This document shows positions 5,753-26,771 of a DNA stretch of 34,040 bases, piece after piece; within the stretch, counting starts at the first letter, position 1, and every line of letters starts with the position of its first letter. Location: the NCBI RefSeq assembly GCF_003865375.1, contig NZ_RQVS01000017.1:1-34040 (forward strand), in the 5' to 3' direction. A model generated the notes under the pieces. It made no database searches. It saw only the letters and a list, made by a program, of their open reading frames with translations, and was not told where the DNA came from. The translations under genes and the position numbers were made by a program. This stretch comes from Gulosibacter macacae. Lineage in GTDB: Bacteria; Actinomycetota; Actinomycetes; Actinomycetales; Microbacteriaceae.

Positions 5753-6823
5753 GTGACCCTGCCCGCATCCAATTCCTCCGCCCGTTCGGCTGCCATGCCA
5801 GCCCTCCTCATCATCGGCTCGTCGATTTCGCTCCAGATCGGTGCGGCATTCGCCGTGCGACTGTTCCCCGAACTCGGTTCGTGGGGAGTGAATGCACTGC
5901 GACTCATGGTGGCCGGTGCGGTGTTGCTCGCGGTCGTGCGTCCGCGCGCCGGCGGTTGGACGGGTCGGCAATGGCGTTCGGTGCTCCTGCTCGGTCTCGC
6001 CATGGGCGGGATGAACGGCACGTTCTACGCGTCGATCGAACACATCCCGCTCGGTACCGCCGTTGCGATTGAGTTCATCGGTCCACTCCTGCTTTCAGCG
6101 ATTCTGTCGCGGCGGGCGCGCGATCTCATCTGGGTGATCATTGCCGCGCTTGGCATGGGGGCGGTGGCGCTTGACTCGCTTATCGGCGGTAGCGCACTTG
6201 ATCCGCTTGGCGTCGTGTTTGCGCTCGTGGCGGCGGCATTCTGGGCCGCGTATATCCTTGCCGGCGCCCGTGTCGGCGTGCTTGTCCCCGGGAACGGAGG
6301 ACTCGGCTTTGCCCTCGTGATTGGTTCGCTCATCTCGGTGCCGCTCGGCTGGGAGGGCATCGGCATGGCGCTCAGCGATTGGCGACTGCTTGGCCTCGCC
6401 GTCGCAACCGCGATTCTCGGCTCGCTCTTGCCCTACTCACTCGAGTTCGTGGCGCTACGGCGACTGCCAAAGCCCGTGTTCGGTGTGCTCATGAGCCTCG
6501 AGCCTGCGGTCGCAACAATCGGCGGCTGGTTGCTCCTCGCTCAGGTGCCGGGCCCGTGGAAGATCGTCGCGGTGGTGCTCGTCATTGTCGCGAGCATCGG
6601 CATCACCCTCGGCGCTCGCAAGGTTGTCGACATCGAACTACCAATCGAGAACCTCTCGACCGGACCGATCGAGTTGCCGCTGCTGCCCGCGCACGTCGAT
6701 GTGGTCGATCAAGACGTTGGTCCAGATCGCTCGCCGACGGCATCCGCGCCGGGCGAGCAAGACTCGTCAGGCGAAGAAGAAGCGGGTGAGGTGGAAGAAG
6801 ACCGGCGCCGCGAAGACGAGTGA
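5753..6823 (+). CDS. EamA/RhtA-like drug/metabolite exporter
   Basis: This integral membrane protein is of the DMT (EamA) superfamily, closest in pattern to RhtA-type threonine/homoserine exporters. About ten hydrophobic helices span residues 15-290. The hallmark pieces are LQIGAAFAVRLFPELGSWGVN in the first repeat, NGTFYASIEHIPLGTAVAIE, and PYSLEFVALRRLPKPVFGVL with LEPAVATIGGWLLL in the second. A hydrophilic, very acidic tail of about 60 residues follows (EQDSSGEEEAGEVEEDRR), unusual for the family. The last 57 nt run antisense into the end of the cytidylyltransferase gene. GTG at 5753 is taken as the start; an upstream TTG at 5717 is possible. The substrate is not determined. Confidence 0.82.
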   Translation: MTLPASNSSARSAAMPALLIIGSSISLQIGAAFAVRLFPELGSWGVNALRLMVAGAVLLAVVRPRAGGWTGRQWRSVLLLGLAMGGMNGTFYASIEHIPLGTAVAIEFIGPLLLSAILSRRARDLIWVIIAALGMGAVALDSLIGGSALDPLGVVFALVAAAFWAAYILAGARVGVLVPGNGGLGFALVIGSLISVPLGWEGIGMALSDWRLLGLAVATAILGSLLPYSLEFVALRRLPKPVFGVLMSLEPAVATIGGWLLLAQVPGPWKIVAVVLVIVASIGITLGARKVVDIELPIENLSTGPIELPLLPAHVDVVDQDVGPDRSPTASAPGEQDSSGEEEAGEVEEDRRREDE

Positions 6824-7759
6824 GTCGACGCGGTCCATAATGCCGCCGTGTCCGGGGATGAGATCGCCGAAGTCTTTGACGCCGCGATCGCGTTTGATGG
6901 AGCTCATCACGAGACCACCGGCAAAGCCCATGAGGCAGGCGATGAATGCGAACAGTGCCGCCTGCCACGGCGCGAAGGGTGTTGCCCACCACAGGGCCGC
7001 GCCGAGGGCGGTGGCGCTGAGCACCCCACCGATGAACCCCTCCCAAGTCTTGTTGGGGCTCACTTTCGGGGCTACGGAGTGACGGCCGAGCGTCTTCCCC
7101 CAGATGTACTGCAACACATCCGAGCCCTGCACCACGATGATGAGGAAGAGCAGCAGGTTCGCACCTTCCGGGCCGCCGCTGCCCGGCGCCGAACCCTCGG
7201 CCACGACGCGCCCGTGGTGCATCGCCACCGGCAATTGCAGGAGCGCGGGCGCGTGGCTGAGCGCGTAGACGCAGACCATGAGGGCCCACTGCACTACGGA
7301 TGCGCGGCGCAAGAAACCGCGCGTCTCACCCATGAGCGCGGTGCGTGCAGGCAAGAAAAGAAACGCGTAGACGGGGATGAACACTGCAAAGAAGCCGTAC
7401 CAGTGCTGCCAGACCGAGAAATAGTGCAACGGCAGGATGATCCAGAACATCCACACGAGCGCCCGGTGATCTTGCTGTGTCGTCGGTGAGATGGTGATGA
7501 ACTCGCGTAGCGCGAGGAATGAGAGCGCGGTGAAGAGCAGGATCGTCACGGTCTCGCCGGCTGCGAGTACGGCCGTGAGCATCGCCGTCATGATCCACCA
7601 GGCGCCGACGCGCTGACGCAGATTGGTGATCAGGCTCTCGTGCTTTGGCGCGCGCAGCGTGCGCGAGAGGATGAACGTGACGATGGTGGCGATGACGAGC
7701 ACGATGCCCACTCCGCCAAGGAGGTGCCAGCCGGTGTCATCGATGAGTCCGATGGTCAT
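6767..7759 (-). CDS. CdsA/YnbB-like phosphatidate cytidylyltransferase
   Basis: This 330-residue multi-helix membrane enzyme is predicted to make a CDP-diacylglycerol-type donor from phosphatidate and CTP. The CdsA signature is clear near the C-terminus: GSDVLQYIWGKTLGRH, APKVSPNKTWEGFIGG, SSIKRDRGVKDFGDLIPGHG, then GIMDRVDSLVFAAP. The arrangement and length are closer to E. coli YnbB than to housekeeping CdsA. It is the last gene of a three-gene set in which each start overlaps the previous stop (ATGA here), so it is translated together with the acyltransferase and phosphatidyltransferase. Its 3' end overlaps the exporter gene convergently. It is probably an accessory enzyme; a genomic housekeeping cdsA is expected elsewhere. 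Confidence 0.88.
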   Translation of the reverse strand: MTIGLIDDTGWHLLGGVGIVLVIATIVTFILSRTLRAPKHESLITNLRQRVGAWWIMTAMLTAVLAAGETVTILLFTALSFLALREFITISPTTQQDHRALVWMFWIILPLHYFSVWQHWYGFFAVFIPVYAFLFLPARTALMGETRGFLRRASVVQWALMVCVYALSHAPALLQLPVAMHHGRVVAEGSAPGSGGPEGANLLLFLIIVVQGSDVLQYIWGKTLGRHSVAPKVSPNKTWEGFIGGVLSATALGAALWWATPFAPWQAALFAFIACLMGFAGGLVMSSIKRDRGVKDFGDLIPGHGGIMDRVDSLVFAAPVFFHLTRFFFA

Positions 7760-8529
7760 GCGGGAGGCTCCTCACTTGTTGGCGGCTCGGGCGATTCGGG
7801 TGAGGCTTGTGCCGCACCCTGCGATCCAGCCGCCTGATCGGCGGCGATTTCTTCGGCGGCTTCGGCCTCGGGGTCGGGGAGTGCGCGCTCAATGAGCTGC
7901 CGCATCCGAATGAGAAAGTCGTCGTCGCTCTCGTCGGCTCCGATGGTGACCGGCTCGAGAAACGTTGCGGTGCCGAGGAGCGGAACCGGCACGAGGCCTC
8001 CCTTTGGCAGGATGCGGCCGAGATTCGCGAGTGCGACCGGGACGAGCGGCACCTCGGGCCGGGCGCGGGCGATGCGCGCGATCCCGGCCTGAAATGCTGC
8101 GAGCGAGCGCCCGTCGCCGCGGGTGCCCTCGGGGAAGATAATGAGCGAGTCGCCAGCGTCGAGCACCTCGAGCATCCCCGCCACCTGACGGCGGCGCGGG
8201 GCGCCGGGCACGGTGGGGGTGGCCGGTTCGCCCTTACCGCGGTCAACGAGATAGGGATTGAACAGGCGAGTGGCTATGCGACCGCGCGCGCCCGAACCCC
8301 AATAGTCGGCGGCGGCGACCGGGCGCGCTTGGCGTCGCAGCCGACCGGGCAGGATCGCCCAAATGGTGAGGAAGTCGAGGTGACTCGAGTGATTCGCGAA
8401 GAAGACCGCAGGTGTTGGCAGATCGAGCACCGTGGCCGGGCGGGCGTCGATCGCGGATGAGGTCACGATGGGGCGAGCCCCGGTGACGATGCGCACACCG
8501 AGCGCCACGAGCGATTGGGCGACGGTCAC
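7756..8529 (-). CDS. PlsC-type 1-acylglycerol-3-phosphate acyltransferase
   Basis: This 257-residue protein carries the PlsC acyltransferase motifs: catalytic NHSSHLD (block I), the LFNPYLVDRG region, and the glycerophosphate-binding block FPEGTRGDG. It is predicted to acylate lysophosphatidate or a similar acceptor at the membrane. The last 45 residues are a low-complexity Ala/Glu/Pro tail (AEEIAADQAAGSQ) outside the catalytic domain. The GTG start at 8529 overlaps the TGA of the upstream phosphatidyltransferase (GTGA), and its own stop overlaps the ATG of the cytidylyltransferase, so the trio is translationally coupled. The in-frame extension upstream is antisense-like and rejected. Confidence 0.88.
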   Translation of the reverse strand: MTVAQSLVALGVRIVTGARPIVTSSAIDARPATVLDLPTPAVFFANHSSHLDFLTIWAILPGRLRRQARPVAAADYWGSGARGRIATRLFNPYLVDRGKGEPATPTVPGAPRRRQVAGMLEVLDAGDSLIIFPEGTRGDGRSLAAFQAGIARIARARPEVPLVPVALANLGRILPKGGLVPVPLLGTATFLEPVTIGADESDDDFLIRMRQLIERALPDPEAEAAEEIAADQAAGSQGAAQASPESPEPPTSEEPPA

Positions 8530-20538: not shown

Positions 20539-21609
20539 TCAGTGCTCGGCGATCCGCACGGGGATGCGGCGGGCGCCGAAATTGCCGGCACGTTCAGCGA
20601 AGCGGCCCGGGATCGCCGTGCCGCACTCGCGACAGCGACCGGCCGCATCCAAGTGATAGCCGAGGATGCGGTACCAATCGCGCTCGATGACGGCAGCCCC
20701 GCAGCCTGGGCACCAGGTCGTATCGCCCTCGGCATCGTGCACATTGCCGGTGTAGACGAACTTCTCGCCGGTATCGAGGGCGATCTGTCGCGCCCGCTGC
20801 AAGGTCGATAGCGGTGTGCGCGGTACATCGCGCATCCGATGATCGGGATGAAAGGCGCTGAAGTGATGCGGCACATCATCACCAAGCTCCGCAACGATCC
20901 ACTCCGACATCGCGCGGATCTCCGCATCCGAGTCATTGTGGCCCGGGATGAGCAGCGTCGTGACCTCAAACCAACACTCGGTCTCGTGGCGCAGGTAGGT
21001 GAGCGTGTCGAGCACGACCGAGAGCTTCGCGCCGGTGACACGCTGGTAGAACTCCTCGGTGAAGCCCTTGAGGTCGATGTTCGCGGCATCCATCGCGGCA
21101 TAGAGTTCACGCCGCGGCGCGGGCGAGATATAGCCCGCGCTCACGGCCACCGGATGCACCCCGCGCTCGCGGCAGGCCGCAGCGACATCGATTGCGTACT
21201 CGGCGAAGATCGTCGGATCGTTGTAGGTGAAGGCGACCGATTCGCATCCGCGCGCTTGGGCTACTTCGGCAATACGCTCGGGCGAAGCCTCGTCGGCGAG
21301 CGAGTCGATCTCGCGTGAGGTGGAAATATCCCAGTTCTGGCAGAACTTGCAGCCGAGATTGCAACCCGCGGTGCCGAACGAGAGCACCGAGGTGCCGGGG
21401 TAGAAGTGGTTGAGCGGTTTCTTCTCAATCGGATCGATGCAGAACCCGCTCGAGCGGCCGTAGGTGTCGAGCACGAGCTGGTCGCCCTCGCGCAGGCGCA
21501 CAAAGCAGAAGCCGCGCTGGCCGTCTTTGAGTCGGCACTCGCGCGGGCAGACATCACACTGGATGCGGTCGCCGACCGGGTGCCACCAGCGGGCTACGGC
21601 TCCTGCCAT
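20539..21609 (-). CDS. amrS: AmmeMemoRadiSam system radical SAM enzyme
   Basis: This 356-residue radical SAM protein matches the AmrS family. The N-terminal cysteine-rich module (C18, C21, C25, C35) precedes the SAM cluster motif C83-x3-C87-x2-C90 in TAGCNLGCKFCQNW. Later features are VAFTYNDPTIFAEYAID, NIDLKGFTEEFY, LLIPGHNDSDAEI and HHFSAFHPDHRM. A C-terminal pair CPGC and CREC suggests a zinc or rubredoxin-like knuckle. A 4Fe-4S cluster should cleave SAM to a 5'-deoxyadenosyl radical; the substrate of this system is not known to me. The ATG at 21609 lies inside the end of amrA (16-nt overlap), so the two are translated together. It closes the amrB-amrA-amrS operon. Confidence 0.93.
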   Translation of the reverse strand: MAGAVARWWHPVGDRIQCDVCPRECRLKDGQRGFCFVRLREGDQLVLDTYGRSSGFCIDPIEKKPLNHFYPGTSVLSFGTAGCNLGCKFCQNWDISTSREIDSLADEASPERIAEVAQARGCESVAFTYNDPTIFAEYAIDVAAACRERGVHPVAVSAGYISPAPRRELYAAMDAANIDLKGFTEEFYQRVTGAKLSVVLDTLTYLRHETECWFEVTTLLIPGHNDSDAEIRAMSEWIVAELGDDVPHHFSAFHPDHRMRDVPRTPLSTLQRARQIALDTGEKFVYTGNVHDAEGDTTWCPGCGAAVIERDWYRILGYHLDAAGRCRECGTAIPGRFAERAGNFGARRIPVRIAEH

Positions 21610-22136
21610 GAGCTCACCCCGTATCGCTCGAGGGTGGTGTCGGCGGGCCAGGTGTTCGGGTCGAGGCCTGCCTTGGCGAGCAGGTGGCTGAGGAACTGAT
21701 TTGGGTCGGGCAGGCTCTGCCACACCTGCGGTAGGAAGGTCGCACGGTGGCGGCCCGCGTGTAGCACCACGCCATCGACGCCCGGTCGTAGCGCCGCGAT
21801 GGCGCCGGCCCGGGTGCCGTCATAGCCGATTGCTTTTGGTTCAGTGAGTTCGGACACTTCGATGCGGATCTGGTCGAGTTCACTGCGCTGCAACGGCCCG
21901 AACCGCGGGTCTTGGAATGCCGCCGCGATGGCGTTCTCGGCCACATCGTCGCCGAGATCGCGATAGGCGCGGAGGGTGCCGATGCATCCGCGCAGCTTGC
22001 CGTCGATCGAAAGCGATACGAACGAGGCGCCGGGCTTGCGCAGAGCGTCGTCGCGCGCAGGCATCGGCGCATGCACGCCGAGTTCGTTGGCGATGGTGCT
22101 GCGGGCAATGGCGAGGAGGATCGTGCCGTGGTCCAT
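21594..22136 (-). CDS. amrA: AMMECR1-family AmrA, canonical copy
   Basis: This 180-residue protein is the bacterial homologue of human AMMECR1. The family hexapeptide LRGCIG is intact at residues 48-53 with C51, preceded by GASFVSLSIDGK. The second block ENAIAAAFQDPRFGPLQ and the third block LRPGVDGVVLHAGRHRATF, then LPQVWQSLPDP, are all present. The molecular function is unestablished; the fold and conserved cysteine suggest an enzyme or carrier acting with Memo and the radical SAM protein. It lies between amrB (9-nt gap) and amrS (16-nt overlap), which makes it the operon's cognate AmrA. Two further paralogues lie 1.4-2.7 kb upstream. Confidence 0.93.
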   Translation of the reverse strand: MDHGTILLAIARSTIANELGVHAPMPARDDALRKPGASFVSLSIDGKLRGCIGTLRAYRDLGDDVAENAIAAAFQDPRFGPLQRSELDQIRIEVSELTEPKAIGYDGTRAGAIAALRPGVDGVVLHAGRHRATFLPQVWQSLPDPNQFLSHLLAKAGLDPNTWPADTTLERYGVSSWQEP

Positions 22137-22145
22137 AGTGCGTCC

Positions 22146-22955
22146 CTAGTCAGACGAGGCGGGTGGGGCGTGGAAGGCGACAGTCGCGTAACCGACGACT
22201 CGGCGCAGGTCACCATCGGGGGTATCGCCCGAGTTGCAGGCGCTCACGAGGCTTGGTTGCCAGTGCTTGGCGCGGGCGCGGGTGAGGAGGCCGTTGAGTG
22301 GTCGCACGCCGCAGGCGTCGGTGGGCTGCAGGGTGGCGTCGAGCGCAACGATGCGTTGCAGCGTTTCGGCGTCGTGCGCCCGTGCCGATTCGTATGCCTC
22401 GAAGTGCGAAAGATCGCTCGAAACCAGGATGACCGTCTGCGGGTCACCGTCAAAGAGTGCGATCACTTCGGCGACGGTCGCCGGTGGCACATCGCCGACG
22501 GCGAGCGGTACGAGTGCGAAGTCACCGAGTTGCCGCTGCAGAAATGGCAGGTGCACTTCGAGCGAGTGCTCTTCAGCGTGCACGCGCGGGGCAGTAATCA
22601 CTGCCGGATGCGTGAGTGCCCGGGCAACGAGGTCACGATCGACACGCACATCACCGAGCGGTGTGTTGAAAGCGTCGAAGCCGGCATCGGCAATACCGCG
22701 GATGCCGACGCGGTGGGTCGGGCCAAGCAACACCACGGTGCGCACCGAGCCGATGTCGAGCTGGACATATCCCGTAGCTGCCGTTGGTCCCGAAAAACGG
22801 TGTCCGGCGTGGGGCACGACGAGCGCACGCAACGGCACGCCAGGCGCAACATCGGGCACGCTCGCTTCGGCGAGCATCCGGTCAACCGACGCGCTGAGTT
22901 CAGCCGCATCGGCTGGATAGAACAGTCCCGCAACCGCGGGCGAACGCACGGTCAT
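22146..22955 (-). CDS. amrB: AmmeMemoRadiSam system protein B (Memo family)
   Basis: This 269-residue homologue of human MEMO1 has the fold of class III (LigB-type) extradiol dioxygenases. The metal-site residues can be lined up with those reported for human Memo: H49 in VVPHAGHRFSG, H81 in LLGPTHRVG, H184 in SSDLSHFEAYE and C240 in SACNSGDT. The N-terminal RSPAVAGLFYPAD and EEHSLEVHLPFLQRQLG are also family hallmarks. It presumably binds iron or copper; the reaction is unknown. Being first in the amrB-amrA-amrS operon, it sets expression. Its start is only 42 nt from the divergent 171-residue gene, so a very compact shared promoter region is required. Confidence 0.93.
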   Translation of the reverse strand: MTVRSPAVAGLFYPADAAELSASVDRMLAEASVPDVAPGVPLRALVVPHAGHRFSGPTAATGYVQLDIGSVRTVVLLGPTHRVGIRGIADAGFDAFNTPLGDVRVDRDLVARALTHPAVITAPRVHAEEHSLEVHLPFLQRQLGDFALVPLAVGDVPPATVAEVIALFDGDPQTVILVSSDLSHFEAYESARAHDAETLQRIVALDATLQPTDACGVRPLNGLLTRARAKHWQPSLVSACNSGDTPDGDLRRVVGYATVAFHAPPASSD

Positions 22956-22997
22956 GGCCTCAGTGTGACACCGCGCGCTCTAAGTAGGCTCCATGCT

Positions 22998-23513
22998 GTG
23001 ACCTATTTCGCCGAACAATTGCGTGCCGCGGCCGCCGAGGCGGCGCAGCAACTGCGTGCCGCGGCCATCGAACCGGATGCAGTGGCCGAGTATGAGCCGC
23101 CGCGTCGCCGGTTCATTGGCACGCGGGCCGCGCGGATGCGCGAGATCGGCCGGGCTTGGAAGCTTGGCGCGCTGCTCGTTACCGACGAAGGCGAGCTCCT
23201 CATCGCGGGGGAGACGCTGCGTGCCCACGAGCCGCCGCCGATCCTTGGCTACACCTCGGAGTCGGCGCGTGAGCGCGATGCGTTGCGGCACAGTGCGATT
23301 CGTGGCGGCTTTACCGAGGGCACGACGGTGCACTGGGCGACGCAGCCGATTGATCTGGATGCACTTGACGCCGACTCGACGCCACTCGCCGTTCGTGACG
23401 GTGCACTCGTGGTGCGCTGGTCGCCGCGGGCACCGCTCTCGTCGGCGATGCCACTTCAGGCATATCTTGCCGAGCGGGTGGAACTTGCGATTGCGCCCGA
23501 CCGGGGTGCTTAG
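22998..23513 (+). CDS. Uncharacterised actinobacterial protein inside the amr locus
   Basis: This 171-residue soluble protein has no domain I can name firmly. It opens with an amphipathic, Ala/Gln-rich helix (FAEQLRAAAAEAAQQLRAA), then a basic PRRRFIGTRAARMREIGRAW. A strand-rich part follows (KLGALLVTDEGELLIAGETL), with RDALRHSAIRGGFTEGTTVH and RDGALVVRWSPRAPLSSAM later. I loosely recall similar Microbacteriaceae proteins being labelled glutaminase, but no glutaminase motif is visible, so the label is not used. GTG at 22998 starts family-like sequence; a larger frame running back to 21912 is antisense to amrB and amrA. It is sandwiched between amrB (divergent, 42 nt) and the second AMMECR1 gene (convergent, 10 nt), which hints at a link to the system. 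Confidence 0.7.
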   Translation: MTYFAEQLRAAAAEAAQQLRAAAIEPDAVAEYEPPRRRFIGTRAARMREIGRAWKLGALLVTDEGELLIAGETLRAHEPPPILGYTSESARERDALRHSAIRGGFTEGTTVHWATQPIDLDALDADSTPLAVRDGALVVRWSPRAPLSSAMPLQAYLAERVELAIAPDRGA

Positions 23514-23523
23514 CGCGCGAACA

Positions 23524-24111
23524 CTAGTTCGCGACCGACCCCACAAGCTCCTTCGCCGGGCGAATCGGGTCACCGTAGATGCGCGTCTGGAAGCGCGTGG
23601 CACGAATGTCATCGGCCCAGAAGTTGCCCGGGCGGCCAGCCTTGCGCAGGAGTCCCGACACAAATGCCGCCTTGGTCGGCGCGGTGCGCCACGCGGTTGG
23701 CATGAACGAGGCGTGCTTGCTGCCGCGCTCAAGCAATAGGCCATCAATGTTCGGCCGCAAGTGATCGAAGAGCTCGAGCTGGCTGTGCACCGTGAGCGGC
23801 TCGATATTGGTCACGATTGCCACCTCGATCGCAATTCGTTCGAATTCATCCCGGGTAATCGGCGCAAACCGGGGATCGTGGAATGCCGAGTTCACCGCGT
23901 TTTCAGCGATATCGGCGGCGAGACTGCGGAAGGGACGAACGGTACCGAGGCTGCCGCGCAATTGGCCATCGATGCTCAACCGCACAAACGATGAACCGCG
24001 GCGGTGCAGGTCGATGTCATCGACCATCGGCGGCACATGCGTCCGCAGACCCAACTCGGCAGCGATAGCACCGCGGGCGATGGCAACGTAGGGGTGGACA
24101 GACTCAGACAT
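23524..24111 (-). CDS. AMMECR1 paralogue 2, hexapeptide cysteine lost
   Basis: This 195-residue AMMECR1-family protein keeps the overall pattern: GSSFVRLSIDGQ, AENAVNSAFHDPRFAPI, LRPNIDGLLLERGSKHASF and a C-terminal KAGRPGNFWAD. The defining LRGCIG is LRGSLG (residues 51-56), so the conserved cysteine is serine (S54). The N-terminus adds a short MSESVHP extension compared with copy 1. ATG at 24111 has a strong GAGGAG ribosome site directly preceded by a 7-bp inverted repeat. It may be a non-catalytic partner of the canonical AmrA or have a changed substrate; sequence alone cannot decide. It lies on the same strand as the amr operon but is cut off from it by the intervening plus-strand gene. 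Confidence 0.88.
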   Translation of the reverse strand: MSESVHPYVAIARGAIAAELGLRTHVPPMVDDIDLHRRGSSFVRLSIDGQLRGSLGTVRPFRSLAADIAENAVNSAFHDPRFAPITRDEFERIAIEVAIVTNIEPLTVHSQLELFDHLRPNIDGLLLERGSKHASFMPTAWRTAPTKAAFVSGLLRKAGRPGNFWADDIRATRFQTRIYGDPIRPAKELVGSVAN

Positions 24112-24121
24112 TGGATCTCCT

Positions 24122-24155
24122 CGACCGGAAGCTGAATCGGCGGCGCATCCGGTCG
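24122..24155 (-). promoter_or_regulatory. Hairpin abutting the ribosome site of AMMECR1 paralogue 2
   Basis: CGACCGG and CCGGTCG form a 7-bp perfect stem around a 20-nt loop. On the coding strand the second arm runs straight into the GAGGAG ribosome site (CCGGTCGAGGAG). Folding could hinder or expose ribosome binding, but no known riboswitch is recognised. The paralogue upstream has a similar arrangement. Confidence 0.45.
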
Positions 24156-24191
24156 CTGCGTCGTCGCGTGTGGAGGCGACACTACGCCCGC

Positions 24192-24223
24192 CAACACCTG
24201 TCGCGAGCGGAAAACCGGTGTTG
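24192..24223. terminator. Weak inverted repeat between AMMECR1 paralogues
   Basis: CAACACC (24192-24198) and GGTGTTG (24217-24223) form a 7-bp stem with an 18-nt loop in the 184-nt gap between paralogues 3 and 2. No U-tract follows on either strand. It could slow transcription between the two genes or be chance. Nothing else convincing is seen in the gap beyond the ribosome-site hairpin and a Shine-Dalgarno-like GGAGGG on the plus strand. Confidence 0.3.
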
Positions 24224-24295
24224 TCAGCGATTTCGAAGGAGGGAAGCGAATGCCCAGAAACGTCGGCGCATCATGCATCCGGTTTCTCGGGCGGC

Positions 24296-24838
24296 CTACT
24301 GCTCCCGAAAGGTGCGCACCCGAAAGCGCGAAAGTGATACTTCGTCTGACCAGAAGTCGAGTGGAATGCCCGCGCGATGCTTGAGGTGCGTGACCATGTC
24401 GAGCGAATTGGTGTAGCGCTCCCAGGCTTGCGGCAAGACCGCCGCGTGGTGCTTGCCGTAGCGAATCATCACCCCGTCAACGCCGCGGCGCAATTGCTTG
24501 AGGACGGCGCGCTCGTCGCTCGCCACGAGGCGTTCGGGGGTTTCGAGCACCGACACCTCGAGTCGCACCTCGTCGAGTTCGTCGAGGTCGAGCGGTGCGC
24601 GCTTAGGGTCGCGGAACGCCGCGCTGACCGCGTTGTTCGAAATGTCGTCGCCGAGTTGGCGGAAGGCTTCCGCGGTGGAACCGTGCCCGCGCAGATGACC
24701 GAAGGTGTCGTACACCTCAACCGAACTCGCCCCGCGCTCGCGCAGGCGTTCGCTCAGCGCCGGGTAGGCGACTGTCTTGCCGAGTTCACTCAAGATGGAT
24801 GCGCGGGCAAGGCCGAGCACGAGGTTGCCGTCGATCAT
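24296..24838 (-). CDS. AMMECR1 paralogue 3, hexapeptide degenerate
   Basis: This 180-residue AMMECR1-family protein is the most divergent of the three. The LRGCIG site reads LRGHGS (residues 49-54): cysteine, isoleucine and glycine are all changed and H52 stands where the cysteine should be. The DPRF motif of block two is DPKR (NNAVSAAFRDPKRAPLD). The rest of the fold is kept: GASSVEVYDTFG, LRRGVDGVMIRYGKHHAAV, LPQAWERY and FWSDEVSLSRFRV. ATG at 24838 has a good AGGAG ribosome site preceded by a UNCG-loop hairpin. It begins 100 nt after the acyl-CoA ligase stop on the same strand and could be read through from it. Despite the divergence it shows no frame damage, so it appears to be maintained. 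Confidence 0.85.
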   Translation of the reverse strand: MIDGNLVLGLARASILSELGKTVAYPALSERLRERGASSVEVYDTFGHLRGHGSTAEAFRQLGDDISNNAVSAAFRDPKRAPLDLDELDEVRLEVSVLETPERLVASDERAVLKQLRRGVDGVMIRYGKHHAAVLPQAWERYTNSLDMVTHLKHRAGIPLDFWSDEVSLSRFRVRTFREQ

Positions 24839-24938: not shown

Positions 24939-26771
24939 TCAGCGCGCGTCCGCGCCGTAAATGTCGGTCATCGCATCCGAGAAATTGGCGAGCACTACCC
25001 GGCGGATGAGCTTCGTCGAGGCCGAGATCTCGCCCTCGGCTTCAGAGAACGAGCGTCGCACGACGGTGAACTTGCGAATTGACTCGGCCCGCGAGACCTT
25101 GAGATTCGCCTGGTCAATCGCGCGCTGAATCGAATCGCGAACTGCCGGATGCGTGCGCGCCTGCTCGAGCGTGAGCTCGCCCACACCGTGGTTGCGCAGC
25201 CACGTCGGCAGCATCGCCTCATCAAGCGCGATGAGTGCACCGATGAACGGCTTGCCCTCGCCAACCACGAGCACTTCGCCGATGAGCGGATGCGAGCGCA
25301 GCTCACCCTCAAGCACCGCCGGCTGCACATTCTTGCCACCGGCGGTGACGATGATTTCCTTCGTGCGACCAGAGATCTTGAGGTAGCCATCGGCATCGAG
25401 GTAGCCGATATCGCCGGTGCGGTACCAGCCGTCCTCATCAAACGAGGATGCGTTGGCCTCGGCATTATTGCGGTAGCCGCGGAAGACACCGGCACCCTTG
25501 ATGCGCACCTCGCCGTCTTCGGCAATGCGGATGGAGGTGCCCGGATAGGGTGCGCCGACGGTGCCGATCTTGATGAGGCCGGGGCGGTTTACCGACGCCG
25601 GCGCCGTGGTTTCGGTCGCGCCATAGCCCTCCATCACCGTCACGCCGATGCCGCGGAAGAAGTGGCCGTGGCGCTCGCTCAGCGCCGCACCACCTGAGAT
25701 CGCGTACTCGACCTCGCCACCCATCGCGGCGCGAATCTTGCCAAGCACGAGGCGATCGGCAACAACTCGGCGCCACCGCTGCAACGCCGAGGGCCCGGCT
25801 TCCGTGTCGAGCGCGACTGACCACGACTCAGCCGCGCGCACGGCCCAGCGGAAAAGCCGTAGCTTCATGCCGGTGCCAGCCTTCGCATCCGCCGAATTCA
25901 CGACCGTTTCGAACACCCGCGGCACCGCAATCAGCCAGGTCGGACGGAACGCCTGCAACTCGTTCACGAGCTGCTTCGTCGAGGGGGCGTAGCCGAGCAC
26001 TGAGCCCGAATGCACGCAGAGCATCTGCGCGAACCGGCCATATGAGTGCGAAAGGGGCAGGAAGAGCAGCGTGCGCTTCTGCACACCATCGGTACCTGCC
26101 GAGACCACATCGTGCAGGCCCGCATCGGCGACACCATTCGCAACGTGCGAGAGCAAATTGCCGTGCGTGAGTTCCACACCCTTCGGGCGGCCGGTCGTGC
26201 CCGAGGTGTAACAGATCGTGGCGAGGTCATCGAAGCGCACCGCATCCCGGCGCGCGGCGACCTCGTCGTCGGCAATCTCGCGACCTGCTTCGCGAAGGGC
26301 GCCCAGCGCATCCTCGTCGAGTCGAAGCACGCGCTCGAGCCCGGTCGATTCGAGCAGGGGCTCGGTAAGTGCGGCGTGATCACCGTTCTCCACGACGAGG
26401 ATGCGAATGGCTGAGTCGGTCACCATCCACTCGACCTGCTCCTGCGAGGAGGTGTGATAGATCGGCACGACGACACCGCCCACGGCGAGCACCGCGAAGT
26501 CGAGCACGGTCCACTCGTAGCGCGTGGCGGCCATGATGCCGACCGTGTCACCGGGGGAGATGCCAAGGGCAATGAAGCCCTTCGCCGTCGCGAGCACATC
26601 ATCAGCAAGCGTGCGCATGGTGATCGGTGCAAAGTCGCCACCGCGGCGTTCCTCGGCGAACACCGATTCGGGGTCGCGTTCGAGACGCTCACGCAACATG
26701 GAGTTGAGTGACTGCTCGGCCGAGAGCTTGGCACTCGGCGGGGTGGTGGTTTCGCGAAGGCGCGGCGACAT
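24939..26771 (-). CDS. Long-chain fatty-acid-CoA ligase (FadD15-like)
   Basis: This 610-residue ANL-superfamily adenylating enzyme activates fatty acids with ATP and CoA. The P-loop motif YTSGTTGRPKGVELTHGNLL is near residues 190-210. VMEGYGATETTAPASVNRPG and GTVGAPYPGTSIRIAEDGE mark the adenylate-binding core. The hinge and C-domain appear as WYRTGDIGYLDADGYLKISG, then RTKEIIVTAGGKNV with the conserved Lys region. The N-terminal SLNSMLRERLERDPESVFAE and QALF-free start are typical of bacterial long-chain ligases related to FadD15. The length is standard. ATG at 26771 follows AGAGAAG. It diverges from the MFS operon over 184 nt and lies upstream of the AMMECR1 paralogues on the same strand. 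Confidence 0.9.
   Translation of the reverse strand: MSPRLRETTTPPSAKLSAEQSLNSMLRERLERDPESVFAEERRGGDFAPITMRTLADDVLATAKGFIALGISPGDTVGIMAATRYEWTVLDFAVLAVGGVVVPIYHTSSQEQVEWMVTDSAIRILVVENGDHAALTEPLLESTGLERVLRLDEDALGALREAGREIADDEVAARRDAVRFDDLATICYTSGTTGRPKGVELTHGNLLSHVANGVADAGLHDVVSAGTDGVQKRTLLFLPLSHSYGRFAQMLCVHSGSVLGYAPSTKQLVNELQAFRPTWLIAVPRVFETVVNSADAKAGTGMKLRLFRWAVRAAESWSVALDTEAGPSALQRWRRVVADRLVLGKIRAAMGGEVEYAISGGAALSERHGHFFRGIGVTVMEGYGATETTAPASVNRPGLIKIGTVGAPYPGTSIRIAEDGEVRIKGAGVFRGYRNNAEANASSFDEDGWYRTGDIGYLDADGYLKISGRTKEIIVTAGGKNVQPAVLEGELRSHPLIGEVLVVGEGKPFIGALIALDEAMLPTWLRNHGVGELTLEQARTHPAVRDSIQRAIDQANLKVSRAESIRKFTVVRRSFSEAEGEISASTKLIRRVVLANFSDAMTDIYGADAR

Follow-up and report, generated by a model that had tools for sequence, protein, structure and literature searches.

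The contig NZ_RQVS01000017.1 of Gulosibacter macacae (assembly GCF_003865375.1), whose full length of 34,040 nucleotides is the window analysed here, carries an AmmeMemoRadiSam (amr) locus with three genes of the AMMECR1 family, the products of two of which lack the cysteine of the family hexapeptide LRGCIG. The window is the entire contig C9 of a 2.82-Mb genome in 37 contigs (G000). The three AMMECR1 genes, their partners and two neighbours are as follows; the proteins encoded by amrA1, amrA2 and amrA3 are called A1, A2 and A3.

21594-22136, minus strand: amrA1, canonical AMMECR1 with LRGCIG and DPRF and one cysteine; PF01871 155 bits, TIGR04335 187 bits.
23524-24111, minus strand: amrA2, AMMECR1 paralogue with LRGSLG (Cys to Ser) and DPRF, no cysteine; PF01871 123 bits, TIGR04335 146 bits.
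24296-24838, minus strand: amrA3, AMMECR1 paralogue with LRGHGS (Cys to His) and DPKR, no cysteine; PF01871 96.3 bits, TIGR04335 123 bits.
22146-22955, minus strand: amrB, MEMO-like; PF01875 and TIGR04336, 233.9 bits (TIGR04336).
20539-21609, minus strand: amrS, TIGR04337 radical SAM enzyme of the AmmeMemoRadiSam system; 615.6 bits, cut-off 220.
22998-23513, plus strand: orfX, uncharacterised, between amrB and amrA2; conserved in two congeners.
24939-26771, minus strand: FadD-like acyl-CoA ligase (PF00501), a marker of the syntenic border.

As an earlier reading of the letters alone (the sequence-only reading) had proposed, amrB, amrA1 and amrS are tightly packed into one operon: 9 bases separate amrB from amrA1, and amrA1 and amrS overlap by 16 bases. 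That reading also set the two extra copies just upstream, but they do not adjoin the operon: orfX lies between amrB and amrA2 on the opposite strand, leaving a 42-base divergent gap upstream of amrB, so that amrA2 and amrA3, on the same strand as the operon and within 2 kb of it, are its neighbours and not its members. A single AmrB (TIGR04336) and a single AmrS (TIGR04337) stand beside amrA1, which identifies the locus as an AmmeMemoRadiSam system; amrB is the sole Memo match in the genome, and amrS the sole TIGR04337 match above the cut-off. Terminator-like sites in the region are not in excess (2, against 1.6 in shuffles), a result that says little.

All three AMMECR1 frames are intact, with the motifs LRGCIG, LRGSLG and LRGHGS and DPRF, DPRF and DPKR as first read; the ribosome sites claimed for them are likewise borne out, a purine-rich stretch preceding each start when read by eye. 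A1, A2 and A3 exceed the curated cut-offs of both PF01871 (25 bits) and TIGR04335 (99 bits), A2 and A3 each being approximately 40% identical to A1 and 33% identical to each other. In A3 a one-residue insertion precedes the hexapeptide, and besides the cysteine the blocks change from Ile to Gly and from Gly to Ser (hexapeptide) and from Arg to Lys and from Phe to Arg (DPRF). The hexapeptide cysteine that marks an AmrA is present in A1 and is replaced in A2 (Ser) and A3 (His), neither of which contains a cysteine anywhere along its length. Because this residue is missing, we file A2 and A3 as AMMECR1-fold paralogues and not as AmrA equivalents, despite their passing the TIGR04335 score. AlphaFold2 predicts a complete AMMECR1 fold for both (predicted local distance difference test, pLDDT, 91.7 for A2 and 94.8 for A3), one they would share with the solved AMMECR1 structures 1vaj, 1zq7 and 1wsc; for the A2 model, PDB matches below an E of 0.001 are limited to these three AMMECR1 entries. 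Compared with AmmeMemoRadiSam protein A (TIGR04335/PF01871), all three copies are alike in score, and A2 and A3 also in predicted fold. The differences are that A2 and A3 are without the LRGCIG cysteine and A3 without the Arg-Phe of DPRF, that both lie outside the amrB-amrS operon, and that there are three copies instead of one.

The claim that the cysteine is otherwise conserved and has been lost in two copies was confirmed by mapping the residue across the family. Cysteine occupies the motif position in 147 of 149 aligned AMMECR1 domains, the exceptions being A2 and A3; without the rows from the window and identical sequences it is found in 141 of 141. Further members from the phylum, low-scoring ones included, add 60 of 60, none repeating the 141, so that all 201 other distinct domains have cysteine and the only two without it among 204 (201 plus the three in the window) both lie in the window. 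Three solved archaeal AMMECR1 proteins also show LRGCIG in their alignments, and the structure alignments covered 50 of 80 loci together with the three window copies. Not counted in this survey are the repeat loci of the window (L001-L003) and L035, a short fragment with RGCIG intact; L036 carries a fused and very divergent domain that the profile missed and that reads LGCCVS by eye. The phylum part omits 13 of the 105 genomes with a match, the second match of G1020 and a fragment of G946.

Two of the loci named above are unusual in themselves. In L035 (G541, positions 1501-1659), an apparently truncated AMMECR1 domain runs in-frame into radical-SAM (AmrS-like) sequence, and the locus is apparently a degenerate amr locus that has retained RGCIG. 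In L036 (G758, positions 1501-1884), a very divergent AMMECR1-like stretch that keeps the cysteine-containing LGCCVS lies within a frame of approximately 960 residues, the N-terminus of which we take to resemble a phosphoribosyltransferase.

The survey bears directly on the proposal that A2 and A3 are neofunctionalised enzymes, in which Ser in A2, and perhaps His in A3, would take the place of Cys as nucleophile, base or ligand for altered chemistry or specificity. The motif block of A2 is little changed, LRGSLG and DPRF being kept and Ser being a conservative replacement, and the predicted fold is intact; against this, neither Ser nor His occupies the site in any of the 201 other domains, and in A3 the surrounding block is gone as well, a pattern more suggestive of a lost site than of a reused one. 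We consider such a new activity unlikely.

The substitutions in A2 and A3 are not spread evenly. Of 25 near-invariant alignment columns (at least 95% conserved), A2 keeps 20 and A3 keeps 17, while each keeps only 8 of the 36 most variable columns (Fisher P = 1.7e-5 for A2 and 5.3e-4 for A3). Identity to A1 shows the same bias, at 20/25 (A2) and 17/25 (A3) of the conserved columns versus 17/74 for each elsewhere (P = 6e-7 and 8e-5). Codon usage in both genes is host-like and within the range of neighbouring genes, and differences by codon position follow a coding pattern in all three paralogue pairs, lowest at the second position and highest at the third. The pairs differ at 52-56% of third positions and are too diverged for the ratio of nonsynonymous to synonymous substitution rates (dN/dS). 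Favoured conserved columns, intact frames, native codon usage and a confident predicted fold are together signs that A2 and A3 may still be functional proteins.

In phylogenetic analysis, A1 falls with the lone AmrA proteins of three congeners, at 100/99 support, and is 64% identical to the nearest of them. A2 and A3 sit on long end branches, of 2.22 and 1.48 changes per site where A1 has 0.40, and neither has a supported position: they are weakly sisters in a 57-row tree (79/76), a grouping that could come from long-branch attraction, and lie apart in a 149-row tree. In approximately unbiased (AU) tests, a single clade of A1-A3 with the AmrA of the congeners is not rejected (p-AU 0.132 with 149 rows and 0.177 with 57), nor, in the 57-row tree, is a clade of A1 and A3 with the congeners' AmrA (p-AU 0.122), and A1, A2 and A3 alone are borderline in that tree (p-AU 0.081). 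A stepwise loss of the LRGCIG site through the three copies, which the sequence-only reading had proposed, therefore finds no footing, A2 and A3 being about equally far from A1, on long branches that the trees leave unsettled.

No orthologue of A2 or A3 was found. A plasmid search returned a single Ideonella record at 37-39% identity, without a DNA match; viral contigs held no relative of either protein, and no flanking repeats resembling the ends of a mobile element were seen by eye. The native codon usage argues against a recent foreign origin. On the sampled sequences, A2 and A3 either were gained on the lineage leading to this genome or were lost in all sampled relatives.

These observations also weigh on the idea that A2 and A3 are decaying duplicates, recent or foreign functionless copies heading towards pseudogenes. 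Their occurrence in one genome only, their long branches, the loss of the family-defining residue and the smaller share of conserved columns kept (20/25 and 17/25, below the 23-25/25 of A1 and the congeners' AmrA) speak for decay. It would not be expected to leave both frames intact, to steer substitutions away from conserved columns, to give coding-pattern differences by codon position in all three pairs, or to preserve host-like codon usage and confident predicted folds, and we regard decay as improbable. The sequence-only reading had taken absence or broken frames in close relatives as a mark of decay. Absence is indeed what we find, with no counterpart in ten congeners and another gene in the corresponding slot of the nearest, G008. 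Because most of the predictions of decay that were tested fail, we read this absence as the sign of a trait known from one genome and not of decay.

The distribution of the family was surveyed in approximately 1,100 genomes (G000 to G1108, at least one met twice, G590 apparently being encountered again through L089). The count of copies per genome that had been suggested gives three AMMECR1 genes in this genome and in no other. AMMECR1 is present in 4 of 11 genomes of the genus, 4 of 398 in the family sample, 30 of 396 in the order sample and 105 of 296 in the phylum sample; these samples overlap, and the present genome is counted wherever it is included. All 50 named genomes reached through relatives carry AMMECR1, having been chosen for it, in a search that covered 50 of the 80 named loci. 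Within the genus, the genomes with an AmrA match above the cut-off (4 of 11) are also those with AmrB and AmrS; given the rarity of AMMECR1 in the family sample (4/398), the set looks like a cassette that is patchily kept or gained. Of the apparent double matches, that in G599 is one gene in two pieces by its coordinates, that in G964 looks like a single gene split between two contigs, and that in G946 is a weak extra fragment; G1020 has two full AMMECR1 matches on separate contigs. A scan of approximately 85,000 species genomes with an A3-led profile yielded 214 relatives, the best 80 of which all have the cysteine; to be reported by the scan, a sequence must carry one of two peptide patterns, and very near records may be missing.

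One Nitrosomonadales metagenome-assembled genome (MAG), NC_groundwater_1899 (G1102), resembles the window in carrying a second AMMECR1 gene beside the first, and differs from it in that both copies retain the cysteine (LRGCIG and MHGCIG). The locus (L138, positions 5842-7219) is a tandem of two stop-to-stop AMMECR1 frames that overlap; they belong to different branches of the tree, and one may have been acquired next to a gene already resident.

In three congeners there is one amrB-amrA-amrS set, which in G004 and G010 lies beside a patatin-like gene. The order ligase, MFS gene, malQ is common to the window and the congeners G004 and G008. In G008, the nearest congener, the contig with the amr genes stops just past amrB, and another begins just before an orfX homologue and, matching the window, runs on through the ligase, MFS and malQ genes. 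The ends of the two contigs, C121 and C205, do not overlap exactly, yet nearly the same 19 bases close one and open the other (two mismatches by eye), so they are probably adjacent; the assembly comprises 390 contigs (completeness 92%, contamination 5%). In the stretch from orfX to the ligase, G008 has a different frame of 376 amino acids in place of amrA2 and amrA3, relatives of which occur elsewhere in eight other genomes of the genus, that of the window included. Conservation of the neighbourhood, raised in the sequence-only reading, thus fails at the amrA2-amrA3 slot in the nearest congener, though the ligase-MFS-malQ flank is kept. An assembly chimera was considered as a source of the extra copies and is unlikely, the genes on both sides being syntenic with G008.

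In G004, orfX lies directly beside the ligase and the amr genes are elsewhere; its amrS (L067, positions 6757-7814) appears as two segments, of 61 and 293 residues, that do not share a frame, and may be frameshifted in that assembly. The orfX homologues of two congeners are 53% and 63% identical to orfX and lie next to or near the acyl-CoA ligase, the range being 41-63% when G390 of the same family is included. The gene is opposite in orientation to the ligase in the window and in G008, not in G004. A profile search with the translation from base 23001 gave no Pfam or NCBIfam match for orfX.

This arrangement allows a further explanation, in which A2 and A3 are exapted binding domains unlinked to AmrB and AmrS, for instance cotranscribed with the acyl-CoA ligase upstream of them and employed in another pathway. 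Consistent with it, amrA3 starts 100 bases downstream of the ligase gene on the same strand, and the opposite-strand gene divides both copies from the amr operon. However, a single AMMECR1/MEMO/radical-SAM operon was found in the genome, and chance would seldom place both copies within 2 kb of it; congeners, moreover, have the ligase without A2 and A3. We therefore judge exaptation highly unlikely.

The partner proteins offer a clue to what AMMECR1 domains may bind. At 32 of 142 loci, AmrA and AmrB lie in a single frame with no stop codon between them, which suggests that the two act as a pair. AmrB matches the MEMO1 chains 7kq8 and 3bcz (E = 4e-22), the PHAG and GPSH of MEMO1 aligning with PHAG and GPTH of AmrB. 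Of 135 aligned AmrB rows, 134 have the histidines of these AmrB motifs (H49 and H81) and the remaining one has a gap. According to PMC11081632, MEMO1 binds iron through H49, H81 and C244 and showed no dioxygenase activity with the substrates tried; the AmrB histidines are taken, by alignment, to correspond to the ligands H49 and H81. At the third ligand, C244, the comparison differs, the local alignment ending before it and the candidate column being variable in the family. The literature searched gave no reaction for AMMECR1 or MEMO. A 2019 study by Burroughs et al., mentioned in PMC7159879, reportedly deals with Memo-Ammecr1 systems.

We tentatively favour, as quite possible, a reading in which A2 and A3, AMMECR1 paralogues seen so far in one lineage, act as non-catalytic modules, or pseudo-enzymes, beside an ordinary amr operon. 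The presumed catalytic cysteine is gone, but the fold is predicted to be kept and the rest of the conserved core is mostly retained; A2 and A3 would bind the same partner or ligand as A1, most plausibly AmrB or the modified substrate, and would recruit, sequester or tune rather than catalyse. We infer here that the cysteine is catalytic, that the A2 and A3 proteins are made, that AmrB is their partner and that their role is non-catalytic.

Several observations weigh against this reading. A2 and A3 are not part of the amr operon, and a sigma-70 scan of the region gave no promoter-like match (0.3 in shuffles), which says little. The conserved columns are looser in A2 and A3 than in A1 (24/25) or in other AmrA proteins (23-25/25, in three congeners and one other genus of the family), and A3 is without several strictly conserved residues, not the cysteine alone. 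Intact frames by themselves are weak evidence, because a neutral simulation gives a 6% chance of a stop-free frame at such divergence. The ten sampled congeners have no counterpart of A2 or A3, and no relative of A3 above approximately 46% identity appears among the best 80 of the 214 found, so that the two copies may not have been conserved over time; the value of a trait known from one genome is limited to that extent.

A more specific form of the pseudo-enzyme reading, which we hold to be possible but doubtful, is a heteromeric machine with one catalytic AMMECR1 subunit and two dedicated cysteine-free pseudo-enzyme subunits, or with decoys that would bind and silence AmrB or the substrate. 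A machine with several AmrA-like subunits, as the sequence-only reading had imagined, may thus exist, and the observation beneath it is stronger than that reading could have known.

AMMECR1 and MEMO range from archaea to man. Human AMMECR1 belongs to the same domain family as A1-A3 and keeps LRGCIG, and PMC5502304 links it to disease: in one family G177D, a Gly-to-Asp change inside the motif, segregates with developmental delay, midface hypoplasia and elliptocytosis. A3, by contrast, naturally differs from LRGCIG at three of the six residues. Among the literature matches listed, no title or abstract opening describes AMMECR1 proteins without the cysteine, which is the obvious active-site candidate. 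If the heteromeric reading were true, A2 and A3 would be the first pseudo-enzyme branch of the AMMECR1 family as far as searched, with binding naturally separated from catalysis. Natural, apparently folded copies without the cysteine, beside a normal operon, may in any case give a handle on those properties of AmrB or substrate binding that do not need it.

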